Shown: positions 1,808 to 63,793 of the stretch, in pieces
Position numbering within the stretch: position 1 is the stretch's first letter
How the letters are laid out: the number at the start of each line of letters is the position of its first letter
Assembly (NCBI GenBank): GCA_034336665.1
Contig: JAPFBE010000070.1
Coordinates: 124,001 to 188,000, forward strand
Reading direction: 5' to 3'
Length of the DNA stretch: 64,000 bases
DNA from: Luscinia megarhynchos
Taxonomy: Eukaryota; Chordata; Aves; Passeriformes; Turdidae
Translations under genes and position numbers: made by a program
Notes under the pieces: model-generated
Databases searched by the model: none
Told to the model about the DNA's origin: nothing
What the model saw: only the letters and a program-made list of their open reading frames with translations

Positions 1808-4022
1808 GTGACACACCTGGGTGGCGCCGCGGACACCCCAAAATGTCCCCAAATGTCCCCAAATGTCCCCAAATGTCCCCAAAATGTGTCACCTGTCCCC
1901 AAATCTGTCCCCAAATGTCCCCAAATGTGTCACCTGTCCCCAAATGTGTCACCTGTCCCCAAAAGTGTCACCTGTCCCCAAATCTCTCACCTGTCCCACA
2001 GGTGACACACCTGGACGGGGCCATGGACACCCCCTCAAATGTCCCCAAATATGTCACCTGTCCCCAAATCTGTCCCCAAATGTTCCCAAATGTGTCACCC
2101 CCCAAATGTGTCACCCCCTAAATGTGTCACCTGTCCCCAAATCTCTCACCTGTCCCCAAGAGGTGACACACCTGGATGGCGCCGTGGACATCCCAAATGT
2201 CACTCCCAAATGTGTCCCCAAATGTCCCATAATGTCCCCAAATGTGTCACCAGATCTGTCCCCAAAATGTGTCACCTGTCCCCAGATGTCCCCAAATCTC
2301 TCACCTGTCCCACAGGTGACACACCTGGATGGCGCCGTGGACACCCCCAAATGCCACCCCAAAATGTCACCCCCCCAAATGTGTCACCTGTCCCCAAATG
2401 TCCCTAAATGTCCTTAAATGTGTCACCAAATGTCCCCTGATGTCCCCAAATGTGTCACCTGTCCCCAAATCTCTCACCTGTCCCGCAGGTGACCCGCCTG
2501 GACGGCACCGTGGATTGCCCCCAAATGTCCCCAAATGACCCCAAATGTCCCTAAATGTCCCTAAATGTGTCACCTAATGTTCCTAAATGTCCCCAAATGT
2601 CCCCAAATGTGTCCCCTGTCCCCAAAAGTGTCCCCTGTCCCAAGAGGGTGACACACCTGGACGGGCACCGTGGATTCCCCCAAATGTCACCTCAAATGTG
2701 ACCCCAAACCTGTCCCCTAAGGTCCCTTAATGTCCCTAAATGTGTCACCTAATGTCCCCAAATGTCCCCAAATGTCCCCAAATGTCCCTAAATGTCCCCA
2801 AATGTCCCCAAATGTCCCCTGCAGAGGTGACCTCGCCTGGACGGCACCGTGGACTCCCCGCCGTGCCTCCGCCTGTGCCACCGCCCCCCGGGGACCCCCT
2901 AATGTCACCCCAAATGTCCCTAAATGTGTCACCTAATGTCATCTAATGTCCCTTAATGTCGCTAAATCTGTCCCCCAAATGTCCCCAAATGTCCCCAAAT
3001 GTCCCTTAATGCCCCCTAATGTCCCTAAATGTGTCACCTAATGTCCTCTAATGTCCCTTAATGTCCCTAAATCTGTCCCCTAATGTCCCCAAATGTCCCC
3101 AAATGTGTTCCTAAATGTCCCCAAATGTCTCCTAATGTCCCCAAATGTGTCACCTGTCCCCAAATGTGTCACCAAATGCCCCCAAATGTCCCCAAATGTT
3201 CTCTAATGTCCCTTAATGTCCCTAAATCTGTCCCTAAATGTCCCCAAATGTCCCCAAATGTCCCCAAATGTGTCCCCGGTCTCTTTAGGTGACCCGCCTG
3301 GACGGCACCGTGGATTCCCCCCAAATGTCACCCCAAATGTGACCCCAAATCTGTCCCCAAATGTCCCTAAATGCCCCCTAATGTCCCCAAATGTGTCACC
3401 TAATGTTCCTAAATGGGTTCCCAAATGTCCCTAAATCTGTCCCCAAATGTCCCCGAATGTCCCCAAAAGTGTCACCTGTCCCCGCAGGTGACCCGCCTGG
3501 ACGGCACCGTGGACTCCCCCCAAATGTCACCCCAAATGTGTCACCAAATCTGTCCCCAAATGTGTCCCCTAATGTTCTCTAATGCCCCTAAATGTCCCTA
3601 AATCTGTCCCCAAATGTCCCCTAAATGTCCCCAAATGTGCTCCCTGTCCCACAGGTGACCCGCCTGGACGGCACCGTGGACTCCCCTGCCGTGCCTCCCC
3701 GCATGTCCCACCGCCCCTGGGGACCCCCTAATGTCACCCCAAATGTCCCCAAATGTCCCCAAATGTGTCACCTAATGTCATCTAATGTCCCTTAATGTCC
3801 CTAAATCTGTCTCTAAATGTCCCCAAATGTCCCCAAACCTCTCACCTGTCCCGCAGGTGACACACCTGGACGGCACCGTGGACTCCCCCCAAATGTCACC
3901 CCAAATGTGTCACCAAATCTGTCCCCAAATGTGTCCCCTAATGTTCTCTAATGCCCCTAAATGTCCCTAAATCTGTCCCCAAATGTCCCCAAATGTCCCC
4001 AAAAGTGTCCCCTGTCCCGCAG
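1808..4022 (+). repeat. AATGTCCCCA array carrying 11 partial copies of the exon A acceptor edge
   Basis: A 9-10-bp unit (AATGTCCCCA, with TGTCACC variants) is interrupted by partial copies of the start of exon A. Each copy has an AG acceptor followed by GTGACMCRCCTGGACGGCAC-like sequence up to the CCCC of GACTCCCC, then returns to CCCAAATGTC. Copies begin near 1808, 2002, 2163, 2316, 2489, 2648, 2827, 3289, 3488, 3655 and 3857; the complete exon follows at 4023. Copies 2827 and 3655 extend further, to about 75 exon bases. The first copies read VTHLDG or VTHLGG rather than VTRLDG. Confidence 0.9.
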
Positions 4023-4386
4023 GTGACCCGCCTGGACGGCACCGTGGACTCCCCGCCGTGCCTCCGCCTGTGCCACCGCCCCCCGGGGACCCCCGCCCCT
4101 CCCCCGGCGCTGCAGTTCCTCCGGCTCAGCCTCCCGGTGCAGTTCCACCCCAAATTCCGCTGCACCCCCGGCGCCACCCCCCTGCCCCAGGCGCCCCCCC
4201 CGGAGCCCCCCGAGGAGCCCGAGCCCCTCTCGGAGTTCGAGCGGCTGCGGAGGTCGGCGGGGGTCCGCAGCGAGGAGGGGGGCGAGGAGGGGAGCCCCGA
4301 AAAAGGGGGAGGGGCGCGGCGGCCAAGGAGCAGAGGGGGGAGAACGAGAAGGACGCGACCACCGAGAAGAGCAAGGGGAGGAGGGG
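4023..4386 (+). CDS. RYR1: RYR1 exon A: start [14 protein letters not shown], divergent region 2
   Basis: The acceptor GTCCCGCAG is followed by [17 protein letters not shown], which matches the RyR segment between SPRY2 and SPRY3. The middle is rich in Pro and Glu ([19 protein letters not shown]) and corresponds to divergent region 2, a part that differs among isoforms and is implicated in skeletal coupling. The last part reads [20 protein letters not shown] in the frame offset by one base, so one base is missing (or two extra) near the A/G runs at about 4300. The donor is GG|GTGAGT, and the split Gly codon joins to FLFKGRK of exon B. The exact end is well supported; the frame between 4280 and 4320 is not. 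Confidence 0.88.
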
Positions 4387-5241
4387 GTGAGTGCTGGGGG
4401 GTCCCAAATTTGTGGGGGGTCGCGAAAAGGGGGTGTCCAATTTCTGGGGTGTAAAAGGGGGTCCCCAATTTCTGGGGTGTAAAAGGGGTGTCCGGTTTGG
4501 GGTGCCAAAAGGGGGTTCCCAATTTCTGGGGGTGTAAAAAGGGGGTGTCCGGTTTTTTGGGGGTGCCAAAAAGGGGGTTCCTGATTCATTAGGGGCACCG
4601 AAAAGGGGTCCCCAATTTCTGGGGGGTCACCAAAGGGGGTCCCCAATTTCTGGGGGGTCCCAAAAAGGGGGTCCCCAATTTCTGGGGGTCCCCAAAAAGG
4701 GGTGACACCCATCCCTGGGGGGTCCCAAATTTCTGGGGGTCACCAAAGGGGTGTCCGGTTTTTGGGGGTGTCAAAAAGGGGTTAGGGGCACCAAAAGGTC
4801 CCCAATTTCTGGGAATCCCCAAAAAGGGGTGACATCCATCCCTGGAGGGTCCCCAATTTCTGGGGATCACTAAAGGGGGCGCCCCGGTTTTTGGGGGTGT
4901 CAAAAAGGGGGTTCCCAATTTCTGGGGGTGCCAAAAAGGGGTGACACCCATCCCTGGGGGGTCCCCAAATTTCTGGGGGGCGTAAAGGGGGTTCCCAATT
5001 TTTGGGGGGTGCCAAAAGGGTGACACCCATCCCTGGGGGGTCCCAAAATTTCTGGGGGTCACTAAAAGGGGGTCCCCAATTTCTGGGGGTCCCCAAAAGG
5101 GGGGTGACACCCATCCCTGGGGGGTCCCCAATTTCTGGGAATCCCCAAAAAGGGGTGACACCCATCCCTGGGGGGTCCCCAATTTCTGGGGGGGTGTCCC
5201 CAAAATCGGGGTGACCCCTCCCCTCCCCACGCGCCCCCCAG
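4387..5241. repeat. Intron A-B: GGGGTCCCCAATTTCTGGGG-type minisatellite
   Basis: A G-rich array of roughly 20-30-bp units built from CCCCAATTTCTGGGG, CAAAAAGGGGTGACACCC and ATCCCTGGGGGGTCCC blocks. No exon-edge copies are present, unlike most neighbouring introns. The + strand has many runs of four or more G and could form G-quadruplexes. The array ends just before the C-rich acceptor of exon B. Confidence 0.9.
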
Positions 5242-5368
5242 GTTCCTGTTCAAGGGCAGGAAGACCCCGTTCGCGCCCCCCCCCGCCCCTCCCCCCGTGC
5301 CCAGGCTGGAGGAGGACGTGGTGCCGGACGAGAGGGACGACCCCGAGGTCATCATGAACACCACCACG
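5242..5368 (+). CDS. RYR1: RYR1 exon B: FLFKGRKTPF...DPEVIMNTTT, start of SPRY3
   Basis: Intact: one split-codon base plus 42 codons, reading FLFKGRKTPFAPPPAPPPVP and then RLEEDVVPDERDDPEVIMNT-TT. The Pro-rich part is variable in RYR1; DDPEVIMNTTT leads into SPRY3. The acceptor is CGCCCCCCAG. The donor is ACG|GTATGG, weaker than the GTGAG donors of most other exons here. The last ~25 exon bases and this donor recur 11 more times downstream, so which donor is used cannot be settled from sequence alone. The first is chosen because only it is attached to the whole exon. Confidence 0.93.
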
Positions 5369-8300
5369 GTATGGGCCCCAAAACACCCCAAAAACACCCC
5401 AAAAATATCCCAAAATCACCCCAAAAATATCCCAAAAATACCGCAAAAATATCCCAAAATATCCCAAAAATATCCCAAAAATATCCCAAAAATAACCCAC
5501 AAACCCCGAGGTCATCATGAACACCACCACGGTATGGGCCCCAAAAACACCCAAAAACACCCCAAAAATATCCCAAAATCACCCCAGAAATATCCCAAAA
5601 ATATCCCAAAAATATCCCAAAAATATCTCAAAAAATATCCCAAAAATATCCCCAAAAATACCGCTAAAATATCCAAAACAACCCACAAACCCCCGAGGTC
5701 ATCATGAACACCACCACGGTATGGGCCCCCAAAAACACCCAAAAACACCCCAAAAATATCCCAACATCACCCCAAAAATATCCCAAAAATATCCCAAAAT
5801 ATCCCAAAAAATATCCCAAAAATATCCCAAAAATATCCCAAAAATACCCCAAAAATACCGCAAAAATATCCCAAAAATATCCCAAAAATATCCCAAAAAT
5901 ATCCCAAAAATATCCCAAAAATATCCCAAAAATACCGCAAAAATATCCCAAAAAATATCCCAAAAATATCCCAAAAATAACCCACAAACCCCGAGGTCAT
6001 CATGAACACCACCACGGTATGGGCCCCAAAACACCCCAAAAACACCCCAAAAATATCCCAAAATCACCCCAGAAATATCCCAAAAATATCCCAAAAATAT
6101 CCCGAAAATATCCCAAAATCAACCCAAAAATATCCCAAAATCACCCCAGAAATATCCCAAAATACCTAGCAAAATATCCCAAAAATACCCCCCAAAAACT
6201 CCCACAAAAATAACACAAAAACACCCAGAAAACACCCCCAAAAATATCCCAAAATATCCGAAAATGCCCCCAAAAATATCCCAAAAATATCCCGAAAATA
6301 TCCCAAAAACACCCCAAAAATATCCCAAAATCACCCCAAAAATACCACAAAAATATCCCAAAAACACCCCAAAAAAAATCCCAAAATCACCCCAAAAATA
6401 TCCCGAAAATATCCCAAAAATATCCCGAAAATATCCCAAAAATATCCCAAAAATATCCCAAAATCACCCCAACATCACCCCAAAAATACCCCAAAAATAT
6501 CCCAAAAATACCCCAAAAATCACCCCAAAAATACCGCTAAAAAATATCCCAAAAATATCCCAAAAATATCCCAAAAATATCCCAAAAATAACCCAAAAAA
6601 TAACCCAAAATCACCCCAAAATATCGATATCCCAAAAATATCCCAAAAATATCCCAAAAATACCCCAAAAATAACCCAAATATATCCCAAAAATACCCCA
6701 AAAATATCCCAAAAATATCCCAAAAATATCCCAAAAATATCCCAAAAATATCCCAAAAATATCCCAAAATACCGCAAAAATATCCCAAAAATCACCCCAG
6801 AAATATCCCAAAAATACCGCAAAAATATCCCAAAAATCACCCCAAAAATATCCCAAAAATATCCCAAAAATATCCCGAAAATATCCCAAAAATATCCCAA
6901 AAATATCCCAAAAATACCCCAAAAATACCCCAAAAATACCCCCAAAATACCCACAAACCCCCGAGGTCATCATGAACACCACCACGGTATGGGCCCCAAA
7001 AATAACCCAAAATCACCCCAAAAATATCCCAAAAATATCCCAAAAATACCGCAAAAATATCCCGAAAATATCCCAAAAATATCCCAAAAATATCCCAAAA
7101 ATATCCCAAAAATATCCCAAAAATATCCCAAAAATACCCCAAAAATATCCCAAAAATATCCCAAAAATATCCCAAAAATATCCCGAAAATATCCCAAAAA
7201 TATCCCAAAAATATCCCAAGAACACCCCAAAAATACCCCAAAAATATCCCAAAAATCACCCCCAGAAATATCCCAAAATATCCCAAAAATACCCACAAAC
7301 CCCCGAGGTCATCATGAACACCACCACGGTATGGGCCCCAAAACACCCCAAAAACACCCCAAAAATATCCCAACATCACCCCAAAAATATCCCAAAAATA
7401 TCCCAAAAATACCCCAAAAAGACCCCGAAAATATCCCAAAAATATCCCGAAAATATCCCAAAAATATCCCAAGAATATCTCAAAAATATCCCAAAAATAC
7501 CCCCAAAAATACCCCAAAAACTCCACAAAAATATCCCAAAATCACCCCAAAAATATCCCAACATCACCCCAGAAATATCCCAAAAATACCGCAAAAATAT
7601 CCCAAAAATACCGCAAAAATATCCCGAAAATATCCCAAAAATATCCCAAAAATATCCCAAGAACACCCCAAAAATACCGCAAAAATATCCCAAAAATATC
7701 CCAAAAATATCCCAAAATCACCCCAAAAATATCCCAAAAATATCCCAAAAATATCCCAAAAATATCCCAAAAATACCACTAAAATATCCCAAAAATATCC
7801 CGAAAATATCCCGAAAATATCCCAAAAATATCCCAAAAATAACCCACAAACCCCAAGGTCATCATGAACACCACCACGGTATGGGCCCCAAAAAAACCCC
7901 AAAAACACCCCAATATCACCCCAAAAATATCCCAAAAATACCGCAAAAATATCCCGAAAATATCCCAAAAATATCCCAAGAATATCTCAAAAATACCGCA
8001 AAAATATCCCAAAAATATCCCAAAAATATCCCAAAAATATCCCAAAAATATCCCAAAATCACCCCAAAAATACCACCAAAAATATCCCAAAAATAACCCA
8101 CAAACCCCTAGGTCATCATGAACACCACCACGGTATGGGCCCCAAAAACACCCAAAACCACCCCAAAATCACCCCCAAAATACCACAAAAATATCCCAAA
8201 AACACCCCAAAAATATCCCAAAAATATCTCAAAAATATCCCAAAATATCCCAAAATAACCCACAAACCCCGAGGTCATCATGAACACCACCACGGTATGG

Positions 8301-9690
8301 GCCCCAAAAACACCCAAAAATATCCCAAAATATCCCAAAATCACCCCAAAAATATCCCGAAATATCCCAAAAATATCCCAAAAATATCCCAAGAACACCC
8401 CCAAAAATACCCCAAAAATATCCCAAAAATATCCCAAAATACCGCAAAAATATCCCAAAAAATACCCCAAAAACTCCACAAAAATAACACAAAAACACCC
8501 AAAAACACCCCAAAAATATACCAAAAATATCCCAAAAATATCCCAAAAATATCGCAAAAATATCCCGAAAATATCCCAAAATCATCCCGAAAATATCCCA
8601 AAAATATCCCAAAAACTCCACAAAAATAACACAAAAACACCAGAAAAACACCCCAAAAATATCCAAAAATACCACAAAAATACCCACAAACCCCGAGGTC
8701 ATCATGAACACCACCACGGTATGGGCCCCAAAAACACCCAAAAACACCCCAAAAATATCCCAAAATCACCCCAAAAATATCCCAAAATACCGCAAAAATA
8801 TCCCAAAAATACCCCAAAACTCCACAAAAATAACACAAAAACACCAGAAAAACACCCCAAAAATATCCCAAAAATATCCGAAAAATGCCCCAAAAATATC
8901 CCAAAAATATCCCAAAAATATCCCAAAAATATCCCAAAAATATCCCAAAAATATCCGAAAAATATCCCAAAAATAACCCACAAACCCCGAGGTCATCATG
9001 AACACCACCACGGTATGGGCCCCAAAAACACCCAAAACCACCCCAAAATCACCCCAAAAATACCACAAAAATATCCCAAAAATACCGCAAAAATATCCCA
9101 AACATATCCCAAAAATATCCCAAAAATACCCCAAAAATATCCCAAACATATCCCAAACATATCCCAAAAATATCCCAAAAATACCCACAAACCCCGAGGT
9201 CATCATGAACACCACCACGGTATGGGCCCCAAAACACCCCAAAAACACCCCAAAATCACCCCAAAAATACTACAAAAATATCCCAAAAATACCGCAAAAA
9301 TATCCCGAAAATATCCCAAAAATATCCCAAAAATACCCCAAAAATATCCCAAACATATCCCAAAAATACCCCAAAAATACCCTGAAACTATCCCAAAAAC
9401 ATCCCAAAAATACCCCAAACATATCCCAAAAATATCCCAAAAAATATCCCAATAATACCCCAGAAATATCCCAAAAATATCCCAAAAATAACCCAAAATC
9501 ACCCCAAAAATATCCCAAAACACCCCTAAAAATATCTGAAAAATATCCCAAAATCACCCTCCTAAAAATACCCCTCTAAAAACACCCCTAAACCACCCCT
9601 AAAATCACTCCCAAAAATACCTTAAAACACCCCCAAAATCACCCCAAAATCACCTCAAAATATCCCAAAATATCCCAAAAATACCCCAAA
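5369..9690 (+). repeat. AAAAATATCCC array carrying 11 copies of the exon B donor edge
   Basis: A 4.3-kb array of an 11-bp unit (AAAAATATCCC, with AAAATACCGC, AAAATCACCC and AAAACACCCC variants). It is punctuated by CGAGGTCATCATGAACACC-ACCACG|GTATGGGCCCC, the last ~25 bases of exon B plus its donor. Copy donors (GT) lie near 5532, 5719, 6017, 6987, 7329, 7879, 8133, 8295, 8719, 9013 and 9220. Copies are nearly identical to the true exon end; two read CCAAGG or CCTAGG for CCGAGG. Intercopy distance varies from ~160 to ~970 bp. The end of the array (9530-9690) is more diverged. Confidence 0.93.
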
Positions 9691-11952
9691 TCCCAAATCC
9701 CTGTCCCCAAATCCCTGTCCCCAAATCCCAAATCCCTGTCCCCATGTCCCTGTCCTTGTCCCTATTCCCAAATCTCCATCCCCAAATTCCCATCCCATGT
9801 CCCCATTCCCAAATCCCTCTCCCCAAATCCCTGTCCCCATATCCCCAACTCCCTGTCCCCAAATCCCTGTCCCCAAATCCCTGTCCCCAAATCCCTGTCC
9901 CAAAAATCCCTGTCCCCAAATTCCCATCCCATGTCCCCATTCCCCAAATCCCTGTCCCCATGTCCCTGTCCCCATGTCCCTGTCCTTGTCCCTATTTCCA
10001 AATCTCCATTCCTAAATCCCTGTCCCCATTCCCAAATCCTCATCCCCAAATCCTTGTCCCCAAATCCCAAATCCCAAATCCCCATGTCCCTAATTTGTCC
10101 CCTCCTGTCCCTAGTACTATTTCTCCTGGGTCTGCTGTTCATGGGCTAGGAGCTGGCAGTGCCTGTCCCTAAATCCCAAATCCCAAATCCCTGTCCCCAT
10201 TCCCAAATCCCAAATCCCAAATCCCCAAAATCCCAAATCCCAAATCCCCATCCCTAAATCCCAAATCCCTGTCCCCAAATCCCAAATCCCTGTCCCCAAA
10301 TCCCTGTCCCTAAACCTCCAAATCCCCATCCCCAAATCCCAAATCCCCATCCCCAAATCCCAAATCCCTGTCCCCAAATCCCAAATCCCTGTCCCCTAAA
10401 TCTCCAAATCCCTGTCCCCAAATCCCAAATCCCAAATCCCTGTCCCCATTCCCAAATCCCAAATCCCAAATCCCCAAATCCCAAATCCCAAATCCCTTGT
10501 CCCTATTCCCAAAATCCCAAATCCCTAAATCCCCAAATCCCAAAATCCCAAATCCCCCAATCCCAAATCCCAAATCCTAAATCCCTAAATCCCTAAAATC
10601 CTAAATTCCAAATCCCCCAAATCCCAAATCCCAAATCCCAAATCCCAAATCCCTGTCCCTCAAATCTCCAAATTTGTCCCTTAAATCCCAAATCCTAAAT
10701 CCCAAATCCCTGTCCCCAAATCCCTAAATCCCAAATCCCCGTCCCCAAATCCCAAAATCCCAAATCCCAAATCCCAAATCCCTGTCCCCTAAATCCCTAA
10801 TTTGTCACCTGTCCCCAGTACTATTTCTCCGGGTCTCAAGTTGTTCATGGCCAGGAGTCGGGCAGCTCTGTCCCCAAATCCCTGTCCCCAAATCCCAAAT
10901 CCCTGTCCCCTAAATCCCCAAATCCCTGTCCCCATGTCCCCAAATTTGTCACCTGTCCCTCCTGTCCCCCAGTACTACTGGTGGCGGGTTGTTCATGGGC
11001 TAGGAGCCGGCAGCTTCTGTCCCCAAAATCCCTGTCCCCTAAATCCCAAATCCCCTAAATCCCAAATCCCAAATCCCAAATCCCAAATCCCAAATCCCAA
11101 ATCCCTAATTTGTCCCTCCCTGTCCCCTAGTACTATTTTCTCCGTCCGCTGTTCATGGGCCAGGAGCCGGGCAGTGCCTGTCCCCAAATCCCCAAATCCC
11201 CAAATCCCCAAATCCCCGTCCCCAAATCCCAAATCCCAAATCCCTGTCCCTAAATCCGAAATCCCTGTCCCCAATCCCAAATCCCTGTCCCCAAATCCCT
11301 AATTTGTCCCTATTCCCATATCCCTGTCTCGAAATCCCTGTCCCAAAATCCCTGTCCCCAAATTCCCATCCCATGTCCCCATTCCCCAAATCCCTGTCCC
11401 CTAATCCCTGTTCCTGTTCCCAAGTCCCTGTCCCCAAATCCCTGTCCCCAAATCCCTGTCCCCATGTCCCCAAATCCCTGTCCCCAAGTCCCTGTCCTTG
11501 TCCCTATTCCCAAATCTCCATTCCCAAATCCCTGTCCCCATTCTCAAATCCTCATCCCCAAATCCCTGTCCCCAAATCCTCAAATCCCTGTCCCCAAATC
11601 CCTGTCCCCAAATCCCAAATCCCAAATCCCTAATTTGTCCCCTCCTGTCCCCAGTACTACTTTTCGGTGCGGCTGTTCGCGGGCCAGGAGCCGGGCAGCG
11701 CCTGTCCCCAAATCCCTGTCCCCAAATCCCAAATCCCAAATCCCCAAATCCCAAATCCCCAAATCCCTGTCCCCAAATCCCAAATCCCAAATCCCTGTCC
11801 CCAAATCCCCAATTTGTCCCCTCCTGTCCCCAGTACTACTTTTCGGTAAAGGGCTGTTCATGGCCAGGAGCCGGACAGTGCCTGTCCCCAAATCCCTGTC
11901 CCCAAATCCCAAATCCCTGTCCCCAAATCCCTAATTTGTCACCTGTCCCCAG
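9691..11952 (+). repeat. CCCAAATCCCTGTCC array carrying 6 copies of the exon C acceptor edge
   Basis: Units of 7 bp (AATCCCA) and 14 bp (CCCCAAATCCCTGT). Six partial copies of exon C, each with acceptor and first ~50 bases, start near 10115, 10819, 10973, 11131, 11655 and 11834. The copy at 11655 is identical to the true exon up to GGCAGCGCCTG, then switches to TCCCCAAATCC. The earlier ones are more diverged (TACTATTTCTCC, GTTCATGGGC). The complete exon follows at 11953. Confidence 0.9.
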
Positions 11953-24000: not shown

Positions 24001-24364
24001 CTTTCCCTTCACAGTTGCATCGACATCCTGGAGCTGTGGGAGCTGGAGCTGCTGCAGTTCCACTGCCACACCTGGGCACACCTGGGCACACCTGGGCACA
24101 CCTGGGCACACTCAGAACCAGTCAGGACACATAAGGGCACACCTGAGGCACACCTGGGACACACCTGGTCACACCTGACCCCCAAATTTTGTTCCCCCAC
24201 AGGTGTGCATTGACATCCTGGAGCTGTGGAGCGCCAGGACCTGCTGCAGTTCCACCGCCACACCTGGGCACACCTGGGCACACCTGGGTCACATACAGGC
24301 AAACTCAAGGCACACCTGGGACACACCTGATCACACCTGAACCCCAAATATTTTTTCCCGCCAG
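21025..24364 (+). repeat. 20 tandem copies of the exon G acceptor edge, with a four-unit higher-order repeat
   Basis: Each ~145-190-bp unit (mean 167) has an acceptor, about 58 bases of exon G (GTGCATCGACATCCTGGAGC through TTCCACTGCCACAC) and then CTGGGCACACCTGGG intron sequence. Copies start near 21025, 21181, 21353, 21526, 21700, 21892, 22055, 22240, 22410, 22584, 22755, 22906, 23078, 23222, 23395, 23547, 23720, 23865, 24015 and 24202; the full exon is at 24365. Four acceptor types recur in fixed order from 22584 on: CCTTCCTTCACAG, TCCCTCCCCACAG, TTTGTTTCCCCACAG and TATTTTTTTCCCGCCAG. Confidence 0.95.
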
Positions 24365-29681: not shown

Positions 29682-29689
29682 GACAGGAC

Positions 29690-31335: not shown

Positions 31336-34102
<2,767 letters not shown>

Positions 34103-36055: not shown

Positions 36056-37394
<1,339 letters not shown>

Positions 37395-39760: not shown

Positions 39761-39779
39761 ATCCCCCTCAAAAATCCAA

Positions 39780-40717: not shown

Positions 40718-43900
<3,183 letters not shown>

Positions 43901-52925: not shown

Positions 52926-54420
52926 GTGGGGAGGGGGCTCTGAAAATGGGGAGGGGTCTCCCAAATGAGAGGGAACAGCCCAAACCTTGGGGGAAAGCCC
53001 AAAGTGTGGGGACACCCCAAAATTGGGGACCTGGTGGGGATCATCAGCCTCCCCCTGCAGATCCCGGCGCTGGGAAAAGGTGGGGAGGGGGCTCCCGGGA
53101 AATAGAGGAGGGGTCTCTGAAAATGAGGAGGGGTCTCCAAAAAATGGGGGGGACATCCTAAACCTGGGGGGAAAGCCCAAAGTGTGGGGACACCCCAAAA
53201 TTGGGGGACCTGGTGGGGATCATCAGCCTCCCCTGATGATCCCGGGCGCTGGGAAAAAGGTGGGGAGGGGGCTCCAAAAATGGGGGAGGGTCTCTGAAAT
53301 AGAGGAGGGGTCCCTAAAGTGTGAGGGGACACTTCAGAATGCGGGGACACCCCAAAATTGGGGACCTGGTGGGGATCATCAGCCTCCCCTGATGATCCCG
53401 GCGCTGGGAAAAGGTGGGGAGGGGGCTCTCGAAATAGAGGAGGGTCTCTGGAAAATGAGGGAGGGGTCCCTAAAGTGTGAGGGGATACACCCCAAAATGT
53501 GGGAGGTCATTGAATGTAGGGACACCCCAAAATTGGGGGACCTGGTGGGGATCATCAACCTCCCCCTGCAGATCCCCGGGCGCTGGGAAAAAGGTGGGGA
53601 GGGGGCTCCTGAAATAGAGGAGGGGTCTCTGAAAATGGGGGAGGGGTCTCCCAAAAATGGGGGGGACATCCTAAACCTGGGGGGGATAGCCCAAAGTGTG
53701 GGGACACCCCAAAATTGGGGGACCTGGTGGGGATCATCAGCCTCCCCCTGCAGATCCTGGCGCTGGGAAAAGGTGGGGAGGGGCTCCGAAATAGAGGAGG
53801 GTCTCCAAAAAATGGGGAGGGTCTCCAAAATGAGAGGGAACAGCCCAAACCTTGGGGAAAACCTCAATGTGTGGGGGCCCCCCAAAATTGGGGGACCTAG
53901 TGGAAGTCATCAGCCTCCCCCCTGCAAGATCCCGGCGCTGGGAAAAGGTGGGAGGGGGCTCTGAAATTGGGGAGGGGTCCCTGAAATAGAGGAGGGTCCC
54001 TAAAGTGTGAGGGGATACACCCCCAAAATGTGGGAGGTCATTGGAATGTAGGACGCCCCAAAATTGGGGGACCTGGTGGGGATCATCAACCTCCCCCTGC
54101 AGATCCCGGCGCTGGGAAAAGGTGGGGAGGGGGCTCCGAAATTGGGGAGGGGTCTCTGAAATAGAGGAGGGGTCCCTAAAGTGTGAGGGGACACTTCAGA
54201 ATGCGGGGACACCCCAAAATTGGGGGACCTGGTGGGGATCATCAGCCTCCCCCTGCAGATCCCGGTGCTGGGAAAAGGTGGGGAGGGGGCTCCGAAATTG
54301 GGGAGGGGTCTCCAAAAATGGGGAGGGGTCCCCAAAAATGGGGGGGAACACCCCAAAGTGTGAGGGGAGTCACCCCAAAATTGGGGGTGGATCATCATCA
54401 CTGCGCTGTAGGATACCCCA
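52926..54420 (+). repeat. Eight tandem copies of the exon R donor edge (~170-bp unit)
   Basis: Each unit has TTGGGGGACCTGGTGGGGAT-CATCAGCCTCCCCCTGCAGA-TCCCGGCGCTGGGAAAAG|GTGGGG (most of DLVGIISLPLQIPALGK). Then come GGGGCTCYGAAATAGAGGAG, GGGTCTCC and ACACCCCAAAA. Exon ends lie near 53079, 53259, 53413, 53593, 53772, 53947, 54121 and 54277, spaced 154-180 bp. Two copies (53259, 53413) read CCCTGATGATCC for CCCTGCAGATCC. Confidence 0.94.
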
Positions 54421-56719
54421 AAATGGGCCAGGCTGGGGGATTCCAAAATTTGGGGGGGGGAATTTTATGGGACTCAGATTTTGGGGATTTTTGGGGTCCC
54501 CCTGACTTTCGGGGTGCCGCAGATGGGAACGTGGTGGGAATTCCAGAATTTGAATTTTGAGGATTTTGGGGGTGATTTTTCGGGTGATTTTTTTGGGGAT
54601 TTTTTTCGGAATTTTTTTTTCGTTATTTTTTTGGGGCATTTTACGGGACTCAGATCTGGGGATTTTTGGGGTCCCCCTGAATTTCGGGGTGCCGCAGATG
54701 GGAACGTGGTGGGAATTCCAGAATTGGATTTGGATTTTTAGCGGTCATTTTTCAGCATGATTTTTTTGGGGATTTTTTTTCGTGATTTTTTGGGGGCATT
54801 TTACGGGACTCAGATCTGGGGATTTTGGGGTCCCCTGAGTTTTAGAAAGGTGCCAGATGGGAACGCTGTGGTGGGAATTCCAAAAATTTGAATTTTGAGG
54901 ATTTTTGGGGTGATTTTTTGGGTGATTTTTGGGGGATTTTTTGGGGGGATTTTTTTCGTGATTTTTTGGGGGATTTTATGGGACCCAGATCTGGGGATTT
55001 TTTGGGGTCCCCTGAATTTCAGGGTGCCGCAAATGGGAACGTGGTGGGAATTCCAAAATATGAATTTTTGATTTCGGAGGTTTCTGGGGGATTTTTTGGG
55101 GATTTTTTTGGGAATTTTTTTTTCGTTATTTTTTTGGGGCATTTTACGGGACTCAGATCTGGGGATTTTTGGGGTCCCCTGAATTTCGGGGTGCCGCAGA
55201 TGGGAACGTGGTGGGAATTCCAAATTTTTAATTTAGATTTCAGGTTATTTTGGGGTGATTTTTTTTGTGATTTTTGGGAATTTTTTTTGGCTGAGTTTTT
55301 TTTTGGGGGATTTTACGGGACTCAGATCTGGGATTTTGGGGTCCCCTGACTTTCGGGGTGCCGCAGATGGGAACGTGGTGGGAATTCCAGAATTTGGATT
55401 TGCATTTTAGAGTTTTTTAGGGGTGATTTTTGGGGGATTTTTTGGGGGATTTTTTGGGGCATTTCTGCGGACTCAGATCTGCGAGAGTTTTTGGGGTCCC
55501 TAAATTTCAAGTGCCGCGAGATGGGAACGTGGTGGGAATTCCAAAATTTGAATTTTGAGGATTTTTGGGGGATTTTTTCGGGTGATTTTTAGGGTGATTT
55601 TTTGGGGGATTTTTTTCCGTGATTTTTTGGGGCATTTTACGGACTCAGATCTGGGGATTTTGGGGTCCCCTGAATTTCGGGGTGCCGCAGATGGGGAACG
55701 TGGTGGGAATTCCAAATTTTTAATTTAGATTTTCAGGTTATTTTGGGGTGATTTTTTGTGATTTTTTGGGAATTTTTTTGGCGATTTTTTTGGGGGGATT
55801 TTTACGGGACTCAGATCTGGGGATTTTTGGGGTCCCCTGACTTTCGGGGTGCCGCAGATGGGAACGTGGTGGGAATTCCAGAATTTGGATTTGGATTTTG
55901 CCGGTCATTTTTCGGGTGATTTTTTGGGGATTTTTTTGGGGGATTTTTTTCGTGATTTTTTTGGGGCATTTTACGGGACTCAGATCTGGGGATTTTTGGG
56001 GTCCCCCTGAATTTCGGGGTGCCGCAGATGGGAACGTGGTGGGAATTCCAAAAATTTGAATTTTGAGGATTTTGGGGTGATTTTTCGAGTGATTTTTGGG
56101 GGATTTTTGGGGGATTTTTTTCATGGATTTTTGGGGCATTTTACGGGACTCCAGATCTGGGGATTTTTGGGGGTCCCTAAATTTCGGGGTGCCGCAGATG
56201 GGAACGTGGTGGGAATTCCAGAATTTGAATTTTGAGGATTTTGGGGGGATTTTTCGGGTGATTTTTCGGGTGATTTTTTTGGGGATTTTTTTTGTGATTT
56301 TTTTGGGGGCATTTTACGGGACTCAGATCTGGGGATTTTTGGGGTCCCCTGAATTTCGGGGTGCCGCAGATGGGAACGTGGTGGGAATTCCAAAATTTTA
56401 ATTTAGATTTCAGGTTATTTTGGGGTGATTTTTTGGGTGATTTTTTTGTGATTTTTTTGGGAATTTTTTTCGTGATTTTTTTGGGGCATTTTACGGGACT
56501 CAGATCTGGGGATTTTTGGGGTCCCCCTGAATTTCGGGGTGCCGCAGATGGGAACGTGGTGGGAATTTCAGAATTTGAATTTTGAGGATTTTGGGGGCAT
56601 TTTTCGGGTGATTTTTTTGTGATTTTTTTGGGAAATTTTTTTTTGGGGATTTTTTTGGGGCATTTTACGGGACTCAGATCTGGGGATTTTTGGGGTCCCT
56701 GAGTTTCGGGGTGCCGCAG
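54421..56719 (+). repeat. Thirteen tandem copies of the exon S acceptor edge (~169-bp unit)
   Basis: The unit is GGGGTCCCCTGAATTTCGGG-GTGCCGCAG|ATGGGAACGTGGTGG, then GAATTCCAGAATTTGAATTT and T/G-rich spacer to GGCATTTTACGGGACTCAGA. Copies start near 54523, 54698, 54857, 55033, 55200, 55367, 55521, 55691, 55858, 56028, 56198, 56370 and 56548, then the true exon at 56720. Spacing is 154-178 bp, mean 169. About 15 exon bases are repeated. Copy 4 has GCAA in place of GCAG. Confidence 0.95.
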
Positions 56720-56889
56720 ATGGGAACGTGGTGGAGCCCCGCATGGCCGCCAGCTTCGTGCCCGAGCACAAGGCGCCGATGGTTCTGTTCCTGGACCGCG
56801 TGTACGGCGTGCAGAGCCAGCAGTTCCTGCTGCACGTGCTGGAGGTCGGATTCCTGCCCGACATGCGCGCCGCTGCCTCCCTGGACACG
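56720..56889 (+). CDS. RYR1: RYR1 exon S: (D)[20 protein letters not shown]...
   Basis: Intact: 170 nt. It reads [40 protein letters not shown] and [26 protein letters not shown] and [15 protein letters not shown] are RyR signatures. The acceptor GTGCCGCAG has a poor local pyrimidine tract and is identical in the 13 upstream copies, so the true exon is chosen because only it continues past GTGGTGG into GAGCCCCGC. The donor is GACACG|GTGAGC. Confidence 0.96.
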
Positions 56890-57410
56890 GTGAGCGGCGC
56901 CCCAAAACTCCCTGGGGAGCCCCAAAATCTCCGTGGGGAGCCCCAAAATCCCTCAAAATCTTTTACACCAAGGGGCGACCCAAAACTTCCCTGGGAAACC
57001 GCAAAATCTCACTGGGGTGTCTCAAAATCTCACTGGGGAACCTTGAAATGCTTCACAGCAAGGGGCACCCCAAAACCTTCCTGGGGAACCCCAAAATCTC
57101 CATGGGGAACCCCAAAATCCTTCACAGCAAGGGGTGACCCAGAATCTCATCAGGGAACCCCAAAACCTCCCTGGGATGCCCCTAAAACCCTCAAAATTCT
57201 TCACAGCAAGGGACGCCCCAAAACCTTCCTGGGGAACCCCAAAATCTCCATGGGGAACCCCCAAAAATCCTTCACAGCAAGGGGTGACCCAAAACTTCCC
57301 CAGGGAAACCCAAAATCTCACTGGGGAACCCCAAAATCTCCATGGGAACCCCAAAACCTCCATGGGGTGCCCCAAAATCTCCCTGGGGAACCCCAAAAAC
57401 CCTCAAAATC
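56890..57410. repeat. CCTTCACAGCAAGGGGYGAC-type array in intron S-T
   Basis: A ~25-bp unit (AACCCCAAAATCTCCATGGGG) with larger ~130-bp blocks, each containing TCCTTCACAGCAAGGGG (near 57045, 57118, 57200 and 57268). TTCACAG gives repeated acceptor-like AGs but no exon copy follows. Confidence 0.87.
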
Positions 57411-58500
57411 CTTCACCCAAAATCTTTTTCATGGAATTGATCTGGGATCCCTCAAATCCCCAAATCTCCCACATGGGATGGATTTGGGGTCACCCCAAAT
57501 CTTCCCCAAATCTTCATTATGGGATGGATTTGAGGTCACCCCAATTTTCTCCAAATCTCCACCCTGAGATGGATTTGGGGTCACCCCAAATCTTTTTCAT
57601 GGGATGGATTTGGGGTGACCCCAAATCTTCCCCAAATCTTTTTCATGGGATGGATTTGGGATCCCCCAAATCCCCAAATCTCCGCCATGGGATGGATTTG
57701 GGGTCACCCCAATTTTCCCCAAATCTCTGCCGTGGGTTGGATTTGTGATCACTCCAAATCTTCCCCAAATCCTTTTCATGGAATGGATTTGGGATCCCTC
57801 AAATCCCCAAATCTCCCCCATGGGATGGATTTGGGGTCACCCCAAATCTTTTTCATGGGATGGATTTGGGATCCCCCAAATCCCCAAATCTCCACCATGG
57901 GATGGATTTGGGGTCACCCCAAATCTCCGCCGTGGGATGGATTTGGGGTCACCCCAAATCTTCTTTATGGGATGGATTTGGGGTCACCCCAAATCTTTTT
58001 TATGGGATGGATTTGGGGTCACCTCAATTTTCCCCAAATCTTTTTTATGGGATGGATTTGGGATCACCCCAAATCTTCCCCAAATCTTTTTCATGGGATG
58101 GATTTGGGATCCCCCAAATCCCCAAATCTCCCCCATGGGATGGATTTGGGATCACCCCAAATCTTCTTTATGGGATGGATTCGGGGTCACCTCAAATCTT
58201 CCCCAAACCTCCGCCGTGGGATGGATTTGTGATCACCCCAAATCCCCAAATCTCCCACATGGGATGGATTTGAGGTCACCCCAGTTTTCCCCAAATCTCC
58301 GCTGTGGGTTTGATTTGTGATCACTCCAAATCTTCCCCAAATCTTTTTTCATGGGATGGATTTGGGATCCCCAAATCCCCAAATCTCCCCCGTGGGATGG
58401 ATTTGGGGTCACCTAAATCTTCTTTATGGAATGGATTTGGGATCACCCCAATTTTCCCCAAATCTTTTTTTATGGGACGGTTTGGGATGGCTCCGCTCCC
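57411..58500. repeat. ATGGGATGGATTTGGGGTCACC array
   Basis: A ~33-60-bp unit: CCCCAAATCTTTTTCATGGG, ATGGATTTGGGGTCACC. Variants include CATGGGATGGATTTGGGATC and CCGCCGTGGGATGG. No exon T edge copies. It ends with CTCCGCTCCCCGTGACC before the exon T acceptor. Confidence 0.92.
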
Positions 58501-58525
58501 CGTGACCCCGCCCGTGTCCCCCCAG

Positions 58526-58740
58526 GCCACGTTCAGCACCACGGAGATGGCTGGCGCTGAACCGCTACCTGTGCCTGGCGGTGATGCCGCTGATCACCAA
58601 GTCGCGCGCTGTTCGCCGAGCACCGAGCACGCGCCATCATGGTGGACTCCATGCTGCACACCATCTACCCGGGCTGTCAGCGGCAGCGCCCTCACCAAAG
58701 GCAGCGACGCCATCGAGGAGTGCCTGATGGCGCTGTGCAG
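58526..58740 (+). CDS. RYR1: RYR1 exon T: ATFSTTEMA...NRYLCLAVMPLITK...
   Basis: ATFSTTEM is followed, after two missing bases, by ALALNRYLCLAVMPLITK. With more indels come LFAEHRARAIMVDSMLHTIY, then SALTKGSDAIEECLMALCR (the last Arg split). The acceptor is GTGTCCCCCCAG and the donor CTGTGCAG|GTGGGG. The bridging-solenoid helices NRYLCLAV and AIMVDSMLHT are conserved. No exon-edge copies lie in either neighbouring intron although both are arrays. Confidence 0.9.
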
Positions 58741-61209
58741 GTGGGGGCACAAAACGGGCGATGGGGAGGCCGCGCAGGGCGGGTGGTGCCAAAATGGGTG
58801 ATGGAATGGCCAAGCAGGGCGGGTGGTGCCAAAATGGGCAATGGAATGGCCAAGCGGGGCGGGTGGTGCCAAAAACGGGATGATTCTAATGGTTAATGTA
58901 ATGGTTGTGGTCAACCTAACGGTCATGGTCAACCCAACGGTCATGGTTAACTGAATGGTCATGGTCAACCCAACTGTTATGGTTATCTCAACGGTCATGG
59001 TCAATCCAACCCTTGTGGTTAATGCAATGGTTGTGGTCAACCCAACGGTTGTGGTCAACCCAACTGTCATGGTTAACTCAACAGTCATGGTTAACTCAAC
59101 GGTCATGGTCAACCCAACTGTTATGGTTAATTCAACGGTCATGGTCAATCCAACCCTTGTGGTTAACTCAATGGTTTTGGTCAACCCAACGGTCATGGTC
59201 AACCCAACGGTCATGGTCAACCCAACTCTTGTGCTTAAGGCCACGGTCATGGTCAATCCAACCCTTGTGGTTAATGCAATGGTTGTGGTCAACCCAACTG
59301 TTATGGTTAACTCAATGGTCATGGTCAATCCAACCCTTGTGGTTAACTCAATGGTCATGGTCAACCCAATCCTTGTGGTTAACTCAACGGTCATGGTCAA
59401 CCCAACGGTCATGGTCAACCCAACCCTTACGGTTAACTCAACGGTCATGACCAACTCAACACTCATGGCCAACTCAACCATCATGCCCAACCCTCATGAC
59501 CAACCCAACCCTCATGCCCAATCCAACCCTCATGCCCAATCCAACCATCATGACCAACCCAACCCTGATGGCCAACCCAATCCCTCATGACCAACTCAAC
59601 CGTCATGCCCAACCCAACCCTCATGGCCAACCCAATCCTCATGACCAACCCAACCCTCATAACCAACTCAGCCCTCATGACCAACCCAACCCTCATGGCC
59701 AGCCCAACTCAACCATCATGGCCAACCCAACCATCATGGCCAACCCAACCCTCATGGCCAACCCAATCCTCATGGCCAACCCAACCCTCATGGCCAACCC
59801 AACTCAACCATCATGGCCAACCCAACCATCATGCCCAACCCAATCCTCATGCCCAACCCAAACCTAATGGCCAACCCAACCCTCATGGCCAACCCAAACC
59901 TCATGGCCAACCCAACCCTCATAACCAACTCAGCCCCCATGACCAACCCAACCCTCATGGCCAGCTCAGCCCTCATGCCCAACCCAACCCTCATGCCCAA
60001 CCCAACCCTCATGCCCAACCCAACCCTCATAACCAACTCAGCCCCCATGACCAACCCAACCCTCATGGCCAACCCAACTCAACCATCATGGCCAACCCAA
60101 CCATCATGGCCAACCCAATCCTCATGGCCAACCCAACCCCTCATGGCCAACCCAACTCAACCCTCATGCCCAACCCAACCCTCATGCCCAACCCAACCAT
60201 CATGCCCAACCCAACCCTCATGGCCAACCCAACTCAACCATCATGCCCAACCCAACCCTCATGACCAACCCAACCATCATGCCCAACCCAACCCTCATGG
60301 CCAACCCAACTCAACCATCATGCCCAACCCAACCATCATGCCCAACCCAACCCTCATGGCCAACCCAACTCAACCATCATGGCCAACCCAACCATCATGC
60401 CCAACCCAACCCTCATGGCCAACCCAACCATCATGGCCAACCCAACCCTAATGCCCAACCCAACCCTAATGCCCAACCCAACCCTCATGGCCAACCCAAC
60501 CGTCATGCCCAATCCAACCATCATGACCAACCCAACCCTCATGGCCAACCCAATCCCTCATGCCCAACCCAACCCTCATGCCCAACCCAACCCTCATGTC
60601 CAACCCAACCCTCATGTCCAACCCAAACCTCATGGCCAACCCAACCCTAATGGCCAACCCAACCCTCATGACCAAGCCAACCCTCATGACCAAGCCAACT
60701 CAACCATCATGCCCAACCCAACCCTGATGGCCAACCCAACCCTAATGACCAACCCAATGCCTCATGCCCAACCCAACCCTCATGGCCAACCCAACCCTCA
60801 TGGCCAACTCAACTCTAATGCCCAACCCAACCCTCATGGCCAACCCAACCCTCATGGCCAACTCAACTCTAATGCCCAACCCAGCCCTCATGGCCAACCC
60901 AACCCTCATGGCCAACTCAACTCTAATGCCCAACCCAACCCTCATGACCAACCCAACTCAACCATCATGCCCAATCCAACTCAACCATCATGCCCAATCC
61001 AACCCTGATGGCCAACCCAATCCCTCATGACCAACTCAACCCTCATGACCAACCCAACCCTCATGGCCAACCCAACTCAAGCATCATGCCCAACTCAGTC
61101 CCATGGCCAACCCCGCCACATTGTCACCTCCCCAGGTGCCACCGTGCCCCCTCACTGTCCCACATCCCCCCTCAGGTGACCCCAAACCCCCAAATTTCCC
61201 CCCCCACAG
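58741..61209. repeat. 18-bp minisatellite (CATGGCCAACCCAACCCT) in intron T-U
   Basis: 58741-58880 has 40-bp GGGCGGGTGGTGCCAAAA units. 58890-59450 has GGTCATGGTCAACCCAAC and GTTATGGTTAACTCAA. 59450-61090 has CTCATGGCCAACCCAACC, with GCCCAA, GACCAA and CAACCATC variants. Eighteen bases make six codons without a stop, so all + frames and most - frames are open for hundreds of codons (TLMANP; MRVGLA). 61090-61209 is short unique sequence and the C-rich acceptor of exon U. Confidence 0.95.
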
Positions 61210-61300
61210 GTACATCCGGCCCCTCCATGCTCCAGCACCTCCTGCGCCGCCTCGTCTTGACGTCCCCATCCTCAACGAGTTCGCCAAGATGCCGCTCAAG
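61210..61300 (+). CDS. RYR1: RYR1 exon U: [20 protein letters not shown]...
   Basis: The acceptor CCCCCCACAG is followed by [20 protein letters not shown] and LNEFAKMPLK, with one extra C in CGGCCCCTCC and one base missing in GTCTTGACG, which cancel out. The donor is CTCAAG|GTGAGC. The length is 91 nt as expected. [17 protein letters not shown] is a near-invariant RyR motif. An 82-bp unexpanded intron leads to exon V. Confidence 0.94.
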
Positions 61301-61382
61301 GTGAGCCCCGAAATGGGGGATCCCCCAAACCCCCCCGGCCCCCCCAGACCTCGCTGACCCCGCCCCGTGTCCCCCCAAAAAG
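61301..61382 (+). other. Compact 82-bp intron U-V, not expanded
   Basis: From GTGAGCCCCGAAATGGGG to CCCCCCAAAAAG. The acceptor is unusual: the pyrimidine tract CCCCGTGTCCCCCC is separated from AG by five A. No repeats. Confidence 0.88.
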
Positions 61383-61523
61383 CTGCTGACCAATCACTAC
61401 GAGCGGTGCTGGCGGTACTACTGTCTGCCCAGCGGGTGGCCCAACATGGGCGTGAGCTCGGAGGAGGAGCTGCACCTGACCAGGAAACTCTTCTGGGGCA
61501 TCTTCGACTCGCTGGCGCACAAG
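61383..61523 (+). CDS. RYR1: RYR1 exon [21 protein letters not shown]...
   Basis: Intact: 141 nt, 47 codons, phase 0 at both ends. It reads [40 protein letters not shown] and [16 protein letters not shown] and [17 protein letters not shown] are RyR signatures. The donor is CACAAG|GTGGGG. One partial copy of its last ~60 bases lies downstream at 61628-61690. Confidence 0.96.
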
Positions 61524-62815
61524 GTGGGGACACTGTGGGGACAGGGGACACAGCTGGGGGGCACTGGGGACACGGTGACACTAGGGACAGGGGTGACGTG
61601 GGGACAGGGTGACACTGGGGACACGGCTCGGGGGAGGAGCTGCACCTGACCAGGAAACTCTTCTGGGGCATCTTGACTCGCTGGCACAAGGTGGGGACAT
61701 GGTGACACTGGGGATGTGGGGATGGTGGCACTGGGGACCACCGGTGACACTGGGGACATGGGTATGGTGGCACTGGGGACAACGGTGACACTGGGGACAC
61801 GGGGATGGTGGCACTGGGGACACTACGGGGATGGTGGCACTGGGGACACGGTGACACTGGGTCAGGGTGACACTGGGAACCACGGTGACACTGGGGACAG
61901 GGGTGACATTGGGGACATGGGGATGGCGACATTGGGGATGTGGTGTTGGTGGCACTGGGGACAACGGGGATGGTGGCACTGGGGATGTGGGGATGTGGCA
62001 CTGGGGACATGGGGATGGTGACATTGGGGATGTGGTGTTGGTGGCACTGGGGACACGGGGATGGTGGCACTGGGGATGTGGGGATGTGACACTGGGGACA
62101 TGGGGATGGCAACATTGGGGATGTGGTGTTGGTGGCACTGGGGACACCGGGGATGGTGGCACTGGGGATGTGGGGATGTGGCACTGGGGACATGGGGATG
62201 GTGACATTGGGGACATACGGGGATGGTGGCACTGGGGACACGGGGATGGTGGCACTGGGGATGTGGGGATGTGGCACTGGGGACATGGGGATGGTGACAT
62301 TAAGGGACATGGTGTTGGTGGCACTGGGAACCGCAGTGACACTGGGGACATGGTGACACTGGGGACATGGGGATGGTGGCACTGGGGACAGGGTGGCACT
62401 GGTGACATGGGGATGGTGGCACTGGGGACATGGGGATGGTGGCACTGGGGACACGATGATGGTGGCACTGGGGACATGGGGATGGTGGCACTGGGGACAC
62501 GATGATGGTGGCACTGGGGATGTGGGGATGGTGACATTGGGGACATGGGGATGGTGACACTGGGGACACGATGATGGTGCACTGGGGACACGGGGATGGT
62601 GACACTGGGGACATGGGGATAATGGCATTGGGGACAGGGGTGGCATTGGGGACACTGGGGACACGGTGACACTGGGGACATGGGGATGGTGACATTGGGG
62701 ATGTGGGGATGGTGACACTGGGGACACGAGGATGGTGACATTGGGGACGTGGTGTTGGTGACATTGGAGAGATGGGGATGGGGGCATTGGGGACACGGGG
62801 ATGTGGCACTGGTGG
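61524..62815 (+). repeat. GGGGATGGTGGCACTGGGGACA array with one copy of the exon V donor edge
   Basis: The exon V end copy is at ~61628-61690 (GGGGAGGAGCTGCACCTGAC, CAGGAAACTCTTCTGGGGCA, TCTTGACTCGCTGGCACAAG|GTGGGG), with two small deletions. Then comes a ~21-33-bp unit array (GGGGACATGGGGATGGTGGC, ACTGGGGATGTGG, GACATTGGGG) with a second-order repeat of ~110 bp. G-rich on +. Confidence 0.92.
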
Positions 62816-63629
62816 CACAGAGATGATGTCACTGGTGACACACAGATGATGTCACTGGTGGCACTGGTGACACGGGGCTGGTGGCACTGGTGACACACAG
62901 ATGATGTCACTGGTGACACACAGATGATGTCACTGGTGACACACAGATGATGTCACTGGTGGCACTGGTGACACAGAGATGATGGCACTGGTGTTACACA
63001 GATGATGTCACTGGTGACACAGGGCTGGTGGCACTGGTGGCACACAGATGATGTCACACTGATGACGTCACTGATGGCGTCATTGATGCCCCTGCAGAAG
63101 TTCGACCCCGAGCTGTACAAGCTGGCCATGCCGTGCCTGTGCTGGCACACTGATGATGTCACACTGATGACTCTGATGTCACACAGATGATACTGATGAT
63201 GTCACTGCTGACAGACAGATGATGTCACTGATGGCGTCACTGATGACGTCACGTCTCTGTCACACAGAAGTTCGACCCCGAGCTGTACAAACTGGCCATG
63301 CCGTTGCCCGTGCTGGCACACTGATTACGTCACTGCTGACTCTGATGTCACACAGATGATGTCACTGCTGACACACTGACGATGTCAACAGATGATATCA
63401 CACTGATGACGTCACTGATGACGTCACTGCTCTCCCCGCAGAAGTTCGACCCCGAGCTGTACAAGCTGGCCATGCCGTGCCTGTGCTGGCACACTGATGA
63501 TGTCACTGATGACTCTGATGTCACACAGATGACACTGATGATGTGACACAGATGATATCACACTGATGATATGACACAGATGATATCACACTGATGACGT
63601 CACTGATGACGTCATTAATGTCCCCGCAG
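62816..63629 (+). repeat. GATGATGTCACTGGTGACAC array with 3 copies of the exon W acceptor edge
   Basis: A ~20-bp unit (GATGATGTCACTGGTGACAC) changes to TGATGACGTCAC near 63060. Exon W copies start at about 63098, 63268 and 63442 after CCTGCAG, CACACAG or CCCCGCAG: AAGTTCGACCCCGAGCTGTA, CAAGCTGGCCATGCCGTGCC, then TGTGCTGGCACACTGATG. The complete exon is at 63630. Spacing is 170-188 bp. Six perfect TGACGTCA palindromes lie at 63063, 63244, 63407, 63419, 63595 and 63607. Confidence 0.93.
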
Positions 63630-63793
63630 AAGTTCGACCCCGAGCTGTACAAGCTGGCCATGCCGTGCCTCTGCGCCATCGCCGGGGCGCTGCCCCCCGA
63701 CTACGCCGACGCGAGTTACTCGTCGCGCACCGAGAAGAAAGCGTCGGTGGACGCCGAGGGCAACTTCGACCCCAAGCCCGTGGAGACCCTCAA
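63630..63793 (+). CDS. RYR1: RYR1 exon [21 protein letters not shown]...
   Basis: Intact: 54 codons plus two bases. It reads [40 protein letters not shown] and [33 protein letters not shown] and [13 protein letters not shown] are RyR1 signatures immediately before the second pair of RyR repeats. The exon is ended at CTCAA|GTAGCG because the protein family continues with Asn here. The TAG seen in CTCAAGTAG is then part of the donor, not a stop. A GTAGCG donor is weak but usable; an assembly error is possible. Confidence 0.9.

Follow-up and report, generated by a model that had tools for sequence, protein, structure and literature searches.

Tandem arrays in the introns of Luscinia megarhynchos RYR1 carry repeated exon edges in a dense case of exon stuttering

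The window analyzed here is a 64 kb stretch of Luscinia megarhynchos DNA (contig JAPFBE010000070.1 of assembly GCA_034336665.1, contig bases 124001-188000 of a whole contig of 242,327 bases) that contains 23 exons of the RYR1 gene on the forward strand, and the introns between these exons hold tandem arrays in which exon ends were repeated together with their splice sites. An earlier note made from the letters alone had claimed about 150 such copies, which was confirmed with 154 listed copies in 21 arrays, the set used for the further analyses, and nearly all of its per-exon counts were reproduced within one or two (including G 20, M 13, A 11, B 11 and R 8). The window is a case of exon stuttering, a kind of structure already published from chicken dot chromosomes by Hron et al. 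in February 2026 (PMC12954441). The best explanation, which we hold with good confidence, is exon stuttering in RYR1 by a founder duplication at each affected edge followed by amplification of a block. Long introns would have been turned into short-unit tandem arrays reaching close to the exons, and a founding tandem duplication spanning from a point in the array to one about 10-90 bases inside the exon would have created a chimeric unit of array sequence, splice site and exon end at about half of the exon edges, copies being present at 22 of 46 with the exon D donor array included. The chimeric unit would then have been amplified and rearranged as a block by ordinary array turnover, either through unequal exchange or through slippage in replication, and purifying selection would have preserved the single complete exon. 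The enzymology was perhaps helped by a few shared bases, the copies would not normally be spliced in, and amplification may be ongoing in the population. The observations behind this explanation are largely shared breakpoints, the locality of the copies, a higher-order arrangement of variants in array G to which the real edge also belongs, and copy-free counterparts of one exon elsewhere in the assembly.

Exon positions came from tblastn with a mammalian RYR1 probe and from splice-site reading, with exon A at 4023-4386 by both means and exons B (5242-5368), G (24365-25506) and W (63630-63793) by splice sites. As a check of identity independent of that probe, 216 residues of exon G were compared with PDB chains and matched RYR1 best (277 bits, relative to 241 for RYR3 and 231 for RYR2). 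Exons I and J lie in badly garbled sequence, which left their borders approximate. Tandem repeats were dense in the introns of the window (514 rows in 64 kb), three introns of 72-82 bases being the exception, and they covered 88% of the flanks of exon G, a figure for that exon only.

Exon-edge copies were located by a semi-global scan in which the template was the splice dinucleotide plus 24 exon bases, confined to the side of each exon where copies were expected, and the exon labels A-W were fitted to the lists of the earlier note, which held no coordinates per label. Copies occurred at the exons named in those lists, which number 17 where the note gives 16. Non-adjacent introns served as the control and gave no matches at up to 5 edits for 45 of the 46 edges, with one match for the exon H acceptor. 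Control introns do match many edges at 7-8 edits, so that the counts for C and D and the higher counts for S rest on looser limits.

Acceptor-side arrays on the forward strand preceded exons A (1808-4022, 11 copies with 26-72 exon bases at a median spacing of 173 base pairs [bp]), C (10115-11952, 6 copies at up to 8 edits, modal 50 exon bases), D (14190-16130, 3 copies at up to 8 edits), F (18071-18824, 8 copies at a median spacing of 81 bp), G (21025-24364, 20 copies, all with 60 exon bases, at a median spacing of 171 bp in a four-unit higher-order repeat), H (26182-26651, 2 copies), K (34103-35281, 9 copies), L (36362-37207, 3 copies), O (43982-45009, 6 copies), P (48763-50522, 9 copies, modal 48 exon bases), S (54523-56719, 12 listed copies, all with 15 exon bases, at a median spacing of 170 bp) and W (63098-63629, 3 copies spaced 170-188 bp apart). 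Donor-side arrays, on the same strand, followed exons B (5504-9260, 11 copies of 28-29 exon bases plus GTATGGG), M (37635-39776, 13 copies, modal 41 exon bases, median spacing 171 bp), N (40855-43362, 7 copies), O (45253-47747, 15 listed copies), P (50818-51430, 4 copies with about 90 exon bases) and R (53019-54277, 8 copies, modal 61 exon bases, median spacing 174.5 bp), together with two fragments of 22 exon bases after exon K (35712-36031) and single donor-side copies after exons F (20079-20143) and V (61623-61690, 68 exon bases). Counts for S, the O donor, the F acceptor, C and D depended on the threshold. The S acceptor had 10 copies at 6 edits, 12 at 7 and 13 at 8; the O donor, for which the template was one copy of 40 bases, had 12 at up to 12 edits with no control match and 18 at up to 14 edits with one; and the F acceptor had 8 at up to 7 edits with 11 control matches and 7 at up to 6 edits with none.

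Missed by the earlier note was an exon D donor array, a 21-bp minisatellite on the forward strand at 16.3-17.7 kb (16298-17721) in which the exon D donor motif CCAGGTGAG occurred in 54 exact copies, a motif count for the intron in total. The rule that the full exon stands last in acceptor-side arrays and first in donor-side arrays held. It is uninformative, however, since the complete exon must end up outermost after any tandem duplication that joins a point in an intron to a point in an exon. None of the 154 copies comprised a whole exon together with its two splice sites; their exon parts ranged from 0 to 90 bases, the longest being 90 of 190.

Locality was assessed with the published screen for exon stuttering, in which whole exons are compared with introns by blastn-short (length at least 20 and at least 42.1 bits), here taking both adjacent introns as proximal. 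The window exons gave 88 proximal, 0 distal and 0 shuffled matches. Across 63 exons of the contig, 40 of which lie outside the window and have only approximate borders, and with contig bases 1-4000 left out, there were 404 proximal, 42 distal and 0 shuffled matches; 41 of the 42 distal matches came from one exon, and 388 of the 404 proximal matches were independent of it. An exon outside the window had 62 upstream matches by the same screen, relative to a maximum of 44 copies in the main text of Hron et al. Also outside the window, an acceptor array before an upstream RYR1 exon (contig 56047-62277) had 70 edge matches including the real edge, with 22 exact 36-mers on the contig and a median spacing of 92 bp.

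Breakpoints within the exons were largely shared within each array. Among the 19 arrays with at least two copies, the commonest exon breakpoint of the array held 112 of 152 copies, including all 20 copies in G at base 60, 12 of 12 in S at base 15, 11 of 11 in B at bases 28-29, 4 of 4 in the P donor at base 90, 11 of 13 in M at base 41 and 7 of 8 in F at base 11. Self-alignments behaved likewise, stopping for exon S at 56734, 15 bases into the exon, in all nine listed (11 in all), and for exon G at 24424, 60 bases into the exon, in six of the nine listed (26 in all). Because breakpoints are largely shared within arrays, these patterns suggest one founding tandem duplication that was later amplified, rather than repeated fresh copying from the exon. 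The earlier proposal of a local expansion acting across splice junctions was thus upheld by the absence of distal matches in the window, the shared breakpoints and the alignments that stop at one point in the exon.

Array G indicates that amplification can act on blocks. Similarity was greatest between units four apart (lag 4, p<0.001; lag 8, p=0.003). One of the four flank types included the real exon edge, so that duplicated blocks have probably taken in the edge as well. No lag above 3 reached p<0.05 in the other 12 arrays tested. In array A the divergence of copies rose with distance from the exon (r=0.88).

Several results weigh against a single founder per edge with later block amplification. 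Array A had at least two breakpoint classes (32 and 72), with 7 of 11 copies in the first and 2 in the second, the commonest breakpoint in K held only 5 of 9 copies, and there was no majority breakpoint in N (3 of 7), the O donor (7 of 15) or H (one each). A clear distance gradient was present only in array A, and variant order at p<0.05 occurred only in A and G among 13 arrays with up to 8 lags each, uncorrected. Bases common to the junction and the array were seen at some founder junctions, for example CACAC in G, while several founder junctions share 0-1 bases, and the sequence shared at junctions was weak overall (combined p of 0.005 for 16 junctions and 0.009 for 14) in a test against random breakpoints in which the best copy was chosen for the observed value and 5 and 7 of the 21 arrays, respectively, had no usable parent. 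A stronger junction-microhomology signal in a first test was discarded, as some of the assumed parents were undetected exon copies and the signal became weak when the test was repeated without them. Finally, consensus errors blur the copies from 26 to 62 kb and base-level detail there is unreliable.

The same consensus errors bear on whether the arrays arose in assembly, by chaining of the same or of unpolished reads that would have inflated them. Relative to the mammalian probe, 39 apparent frameshifts were present in 15 of the 23 exons, 36 of them in exons H-U, exons I and J were barely recognizable, and a 135-base stretch in the intron before exon F held repeats at 98.5% identity, all of which would fit such a fault. 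Some frameshifted exons were conserved, including U (28 of 28 residues, 2 frameshifts), M (39 of 40, 4 frameshifts) and Q (29 of 31), and others were diverged, including H (34 of 66), I (11 of 18), J (18 of 37) and P (38 of 55). Between 26652 and 61300 the frameshifts read as indel-type consensus errors rather than gene decay. Against inflation of the arrays, exons A-G were nearly clean, with 3 apparent frameshifts, and their arrays still held 60 edge copies; apart from the stretch before exon F, repeat alignments within arrays were mostly 74-88% identical among the matches listed (the nine longest per array and all four for W); and variants in G recur in a lag-4 order. On two other contigs of the same assembly, exon G has counterparts presumed to belong to RYR2 and RYR3 (C6 with 56% and C9 with 54% identity). 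Neither exon copies nor tandem repeats were present within about 1.5 kb on either side of these counterparts, one exon being compared, and so the assembly does not do this everywhere. The counterparts had a guanine plus cytosine (GC) content of 0.35 and 0.32 in the flanks and 0.42 and 0.39 in the exon, relative to 0.70 in the RYR1 exon. A general assembly fault, which the earlier note had offered as the alternative, is therefore unlikely as the main cause, and we give it very little credence.

Hron et al. only speculate on the mechanism in their main text, naming replication stress with quadruplexes, or meiotic events (PMC12954441). Replication stress driven by G-quadruplexes (G4) as the cause is in keeping with the many RYR1 arrays that are rich in C or G runs and with G4 motif coverage as high as 0.64 in array C. 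It is at odds with a coverage of 0.00 on either strand in 6 of 20 arrays (the D, F and P acceptors, N, S and W) and of 0.02 in R, and with the low GC content of array F (28%) and array B (36%). Six arrays without a G4 motif together with the 28% GC of array F mean that quadruplexes and high GC are both dispensable for the arrays in their present state. The sequences at founding might have been different, and with that proviso a quadruplex cause appears improbable. Strand bias was also considered and set aside, as the sign of the GC skew switches between introns.

A preferred unit size was apparent across arrays of unrelated sequence. Median spacing fell at 140-205 bp in 11 of 21 arrays, nine of them at 165-175 bp, relative to 2.75 arrays expected log-uniformly over 60-1100 bp (p=2e-5); the 21 arrays tested were the 22 edge arrays minus the D donor (21 bp), with medians of 60-1100 bp, and the value for V rests on one copy. 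In the 11 arrays at 140-205 bp the exon share varied from 15 to 90 bases (coefficient of variation [CV] 0.39, from shares entered by hand, for which the O donor was given the longer class, 44, instead of its mode of 10) while the total unit was near constant (CV 0.05). Pooled spacings gave 100 of 154 at 140-205 bp. Tandem Repeats Finder placed 43 of 181 larger-unit arrays on the contig at 150-185 bp, relative to 24.0 from a smoothed curve (p=3e-4), and arrays at 140-205 bp made up 19 of 40 in the window and 33 of 98 upstream. Two 8-kb pieces of other contigs, chosen for matching a RYR1 array, contained 11 arrays with 5 at 156-180 bp. According to a review, most satellite units are of nucleosomal length or of 5-10 bp (PMC8122249).

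These spacings, and the satellite lengths in that review, would suit a unit length set by chromatin or replication, in which duplications span about one nucleosome repeat or Okazaki fragment (about 150-185 bp) and the arrays have two satellite-like levels, with short units often of 10-20 bp and larger ones near 170 bp. Such a size rule refines the founder-duplication explanation and does not exclude it. It is tempered by the choice of the range and the null after the data were seen, by Silverman's test for one mode (p=0.08), by the downstream arrays, of which 9 of 44 at 140-205 bp match an about log-uniform spread with no excess, by the exceptions (F 81, P acceptor 123, K 131, D acceptor 607, D donor 21, B 294 and N 354 bp) and by the spacing of 92 bp in the 70-edge array outside the window. 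We consider the rule possible but doubtful, and treat the preference near 170 bp as a lead to it. More tentative, and in our judgment rather unlikely, is the broader proposal that exon stuttering is nucleosome- or Okazaki-sized tandem duplication, by which unrelated arrays settle near 170 bp whatever their exon share and without G-quadruplexes; genes on such chromosomes would then be accumulating satellite DNA where they lie, drawing on exon edges as raw material. A helical-turn rule for the short units was not general, as 10 or 11 bases was the commonest short period in only 10 of 30 segments.

Splice dinucleotides (AG or GT) were intact in 145 of the 154 copies, where divergence in the exon parts would predict 133, although the search was anchored at the junction with the dinucleotide in the template, which favors intact copies. 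Given this tally the decoy splice sites do not look purged, and preferential decay of the decoy sites was not found, the sites being at least as intact as the exon parts. The excess over expectation might indicate that decoy sites were kept for a function such as regulated or recursive splicing. The template that favors intact copies speaks against it, as does the lack of any copy that is a whole exon with both sites (the longest being 90 of 190 bases), and a functional role is highly improbable. Exon parts were less divergent than the 60-base intron flanks in several arrays (0.06 relative to 0.25 in G), but not in C or the O donor. Exon-specific conservation, for example by conversion from spliced RNA, was dropped as an explanation, the variable piece in G being a pyrimidine tract.

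The RYR1 arrays resemble the published chicken cases in several respects. Hron et al. reported 1,345 matches in 115 genes and 236 introns, 190 of them on dot chromosomes, with 1-44 copies, a copied source at the exon border and intron length that varies between birds, and the general structure of PHF8 was checked in raw nanopore reads (main text of PMC12954441). As in that account, exon ends with a donor or acceptor were copied locally into the neighboring intron, the copied source touches the exon border with the splice site included (partly by construction, given the junction-anchored search), the introns are rich in tandem repeats while exon G counterparts elsewhere are clean (one exon), and the RYR1 matches pass the screen of Hron et al. 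(88 proximal, 0 distal and 0 shuffled at 42.1 bits or more). The view that the copies are special to one essential gene is contradicted by the 115 chicken genes in that article. RYR1 itself had no occurrence in the main text of PMC12954441, a count that does not cover its 115-gene supplementary list (Fig. S5), and the terms nucleosome, period, microhomology, unequal, Okazaki and higher-order had none in the same text. RYR1 was not found in the literature on hidden or GC-rich chicken genes among the matches listed, and a literature search on splice sites and minisatellites returned only an unrelated paper. A search for RYR1 in connection with microchromosomes returned one paper, on synteny, and sequence stuttering as a term occurred in one of the 10 papers listed for it. 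To the published account the RYR1 arrays add breakpoints shared within an array, a higher-order block, a preferred unit size and arrays free of quadruplex motifs.

In RYR1, a muscle gene that is both essential and very large, a recently described form of genome instability is densely represented, with 404 matches on this contig (with approximate exons) relative to 1,345 over the 115 chicken genes in the main text of PMC12954441. Any mechanism has to account for a founding breakpoint that is mostly single within an array, for block amplification in which, at least once, the real edge took part, for a unit size that favors about 170 bp, and for the existence today of arrays that lack quadruplex motifs or high GC. 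For annotation the window is a warning that decoy splice sites and consensus errors can pass for biology.

Other systems share parts of this arrangement. Alpha-satellite consists of diverged units of about 171 bp in repeating multi-unit blocks, and array G is similar to such higher-order repeats in having diverged units of about 171 bp in ordered multi-unit blocks, but the RYR1 arrays are intronic between conserved exons, are gene-specific and end in an exon, with no centromere connection seen. Tandem exon duplication places tandem copies of exon sequence beside the source exon, whereas only exon ends with one splice site, and never a whole exon, were present among the 154 RYR1 copies. Intron gain by duplication of AGGT segments also duplicates segments bearing splice sites, although the RYR1 copies lie inside existing introns.

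Other repeats of interest in the window included a 10-bp unit, CCAGTCCATC, in about 171 copies at 1-1739, with no larger unit clearly apparent. An AT-rich array separates exons H and I (27080-29480, 16% GC), in which the edge scan found no exon-edge copies. An ATTCT pentanucleotide array occupies 17883-18824, and the exon F acceptor array, AT-rich and without a G4 motif, is of the ATTCT type. ATTCT is the motif of an unstable human repeat, that of spinocerebellar ataxia type 10 (SCA10).

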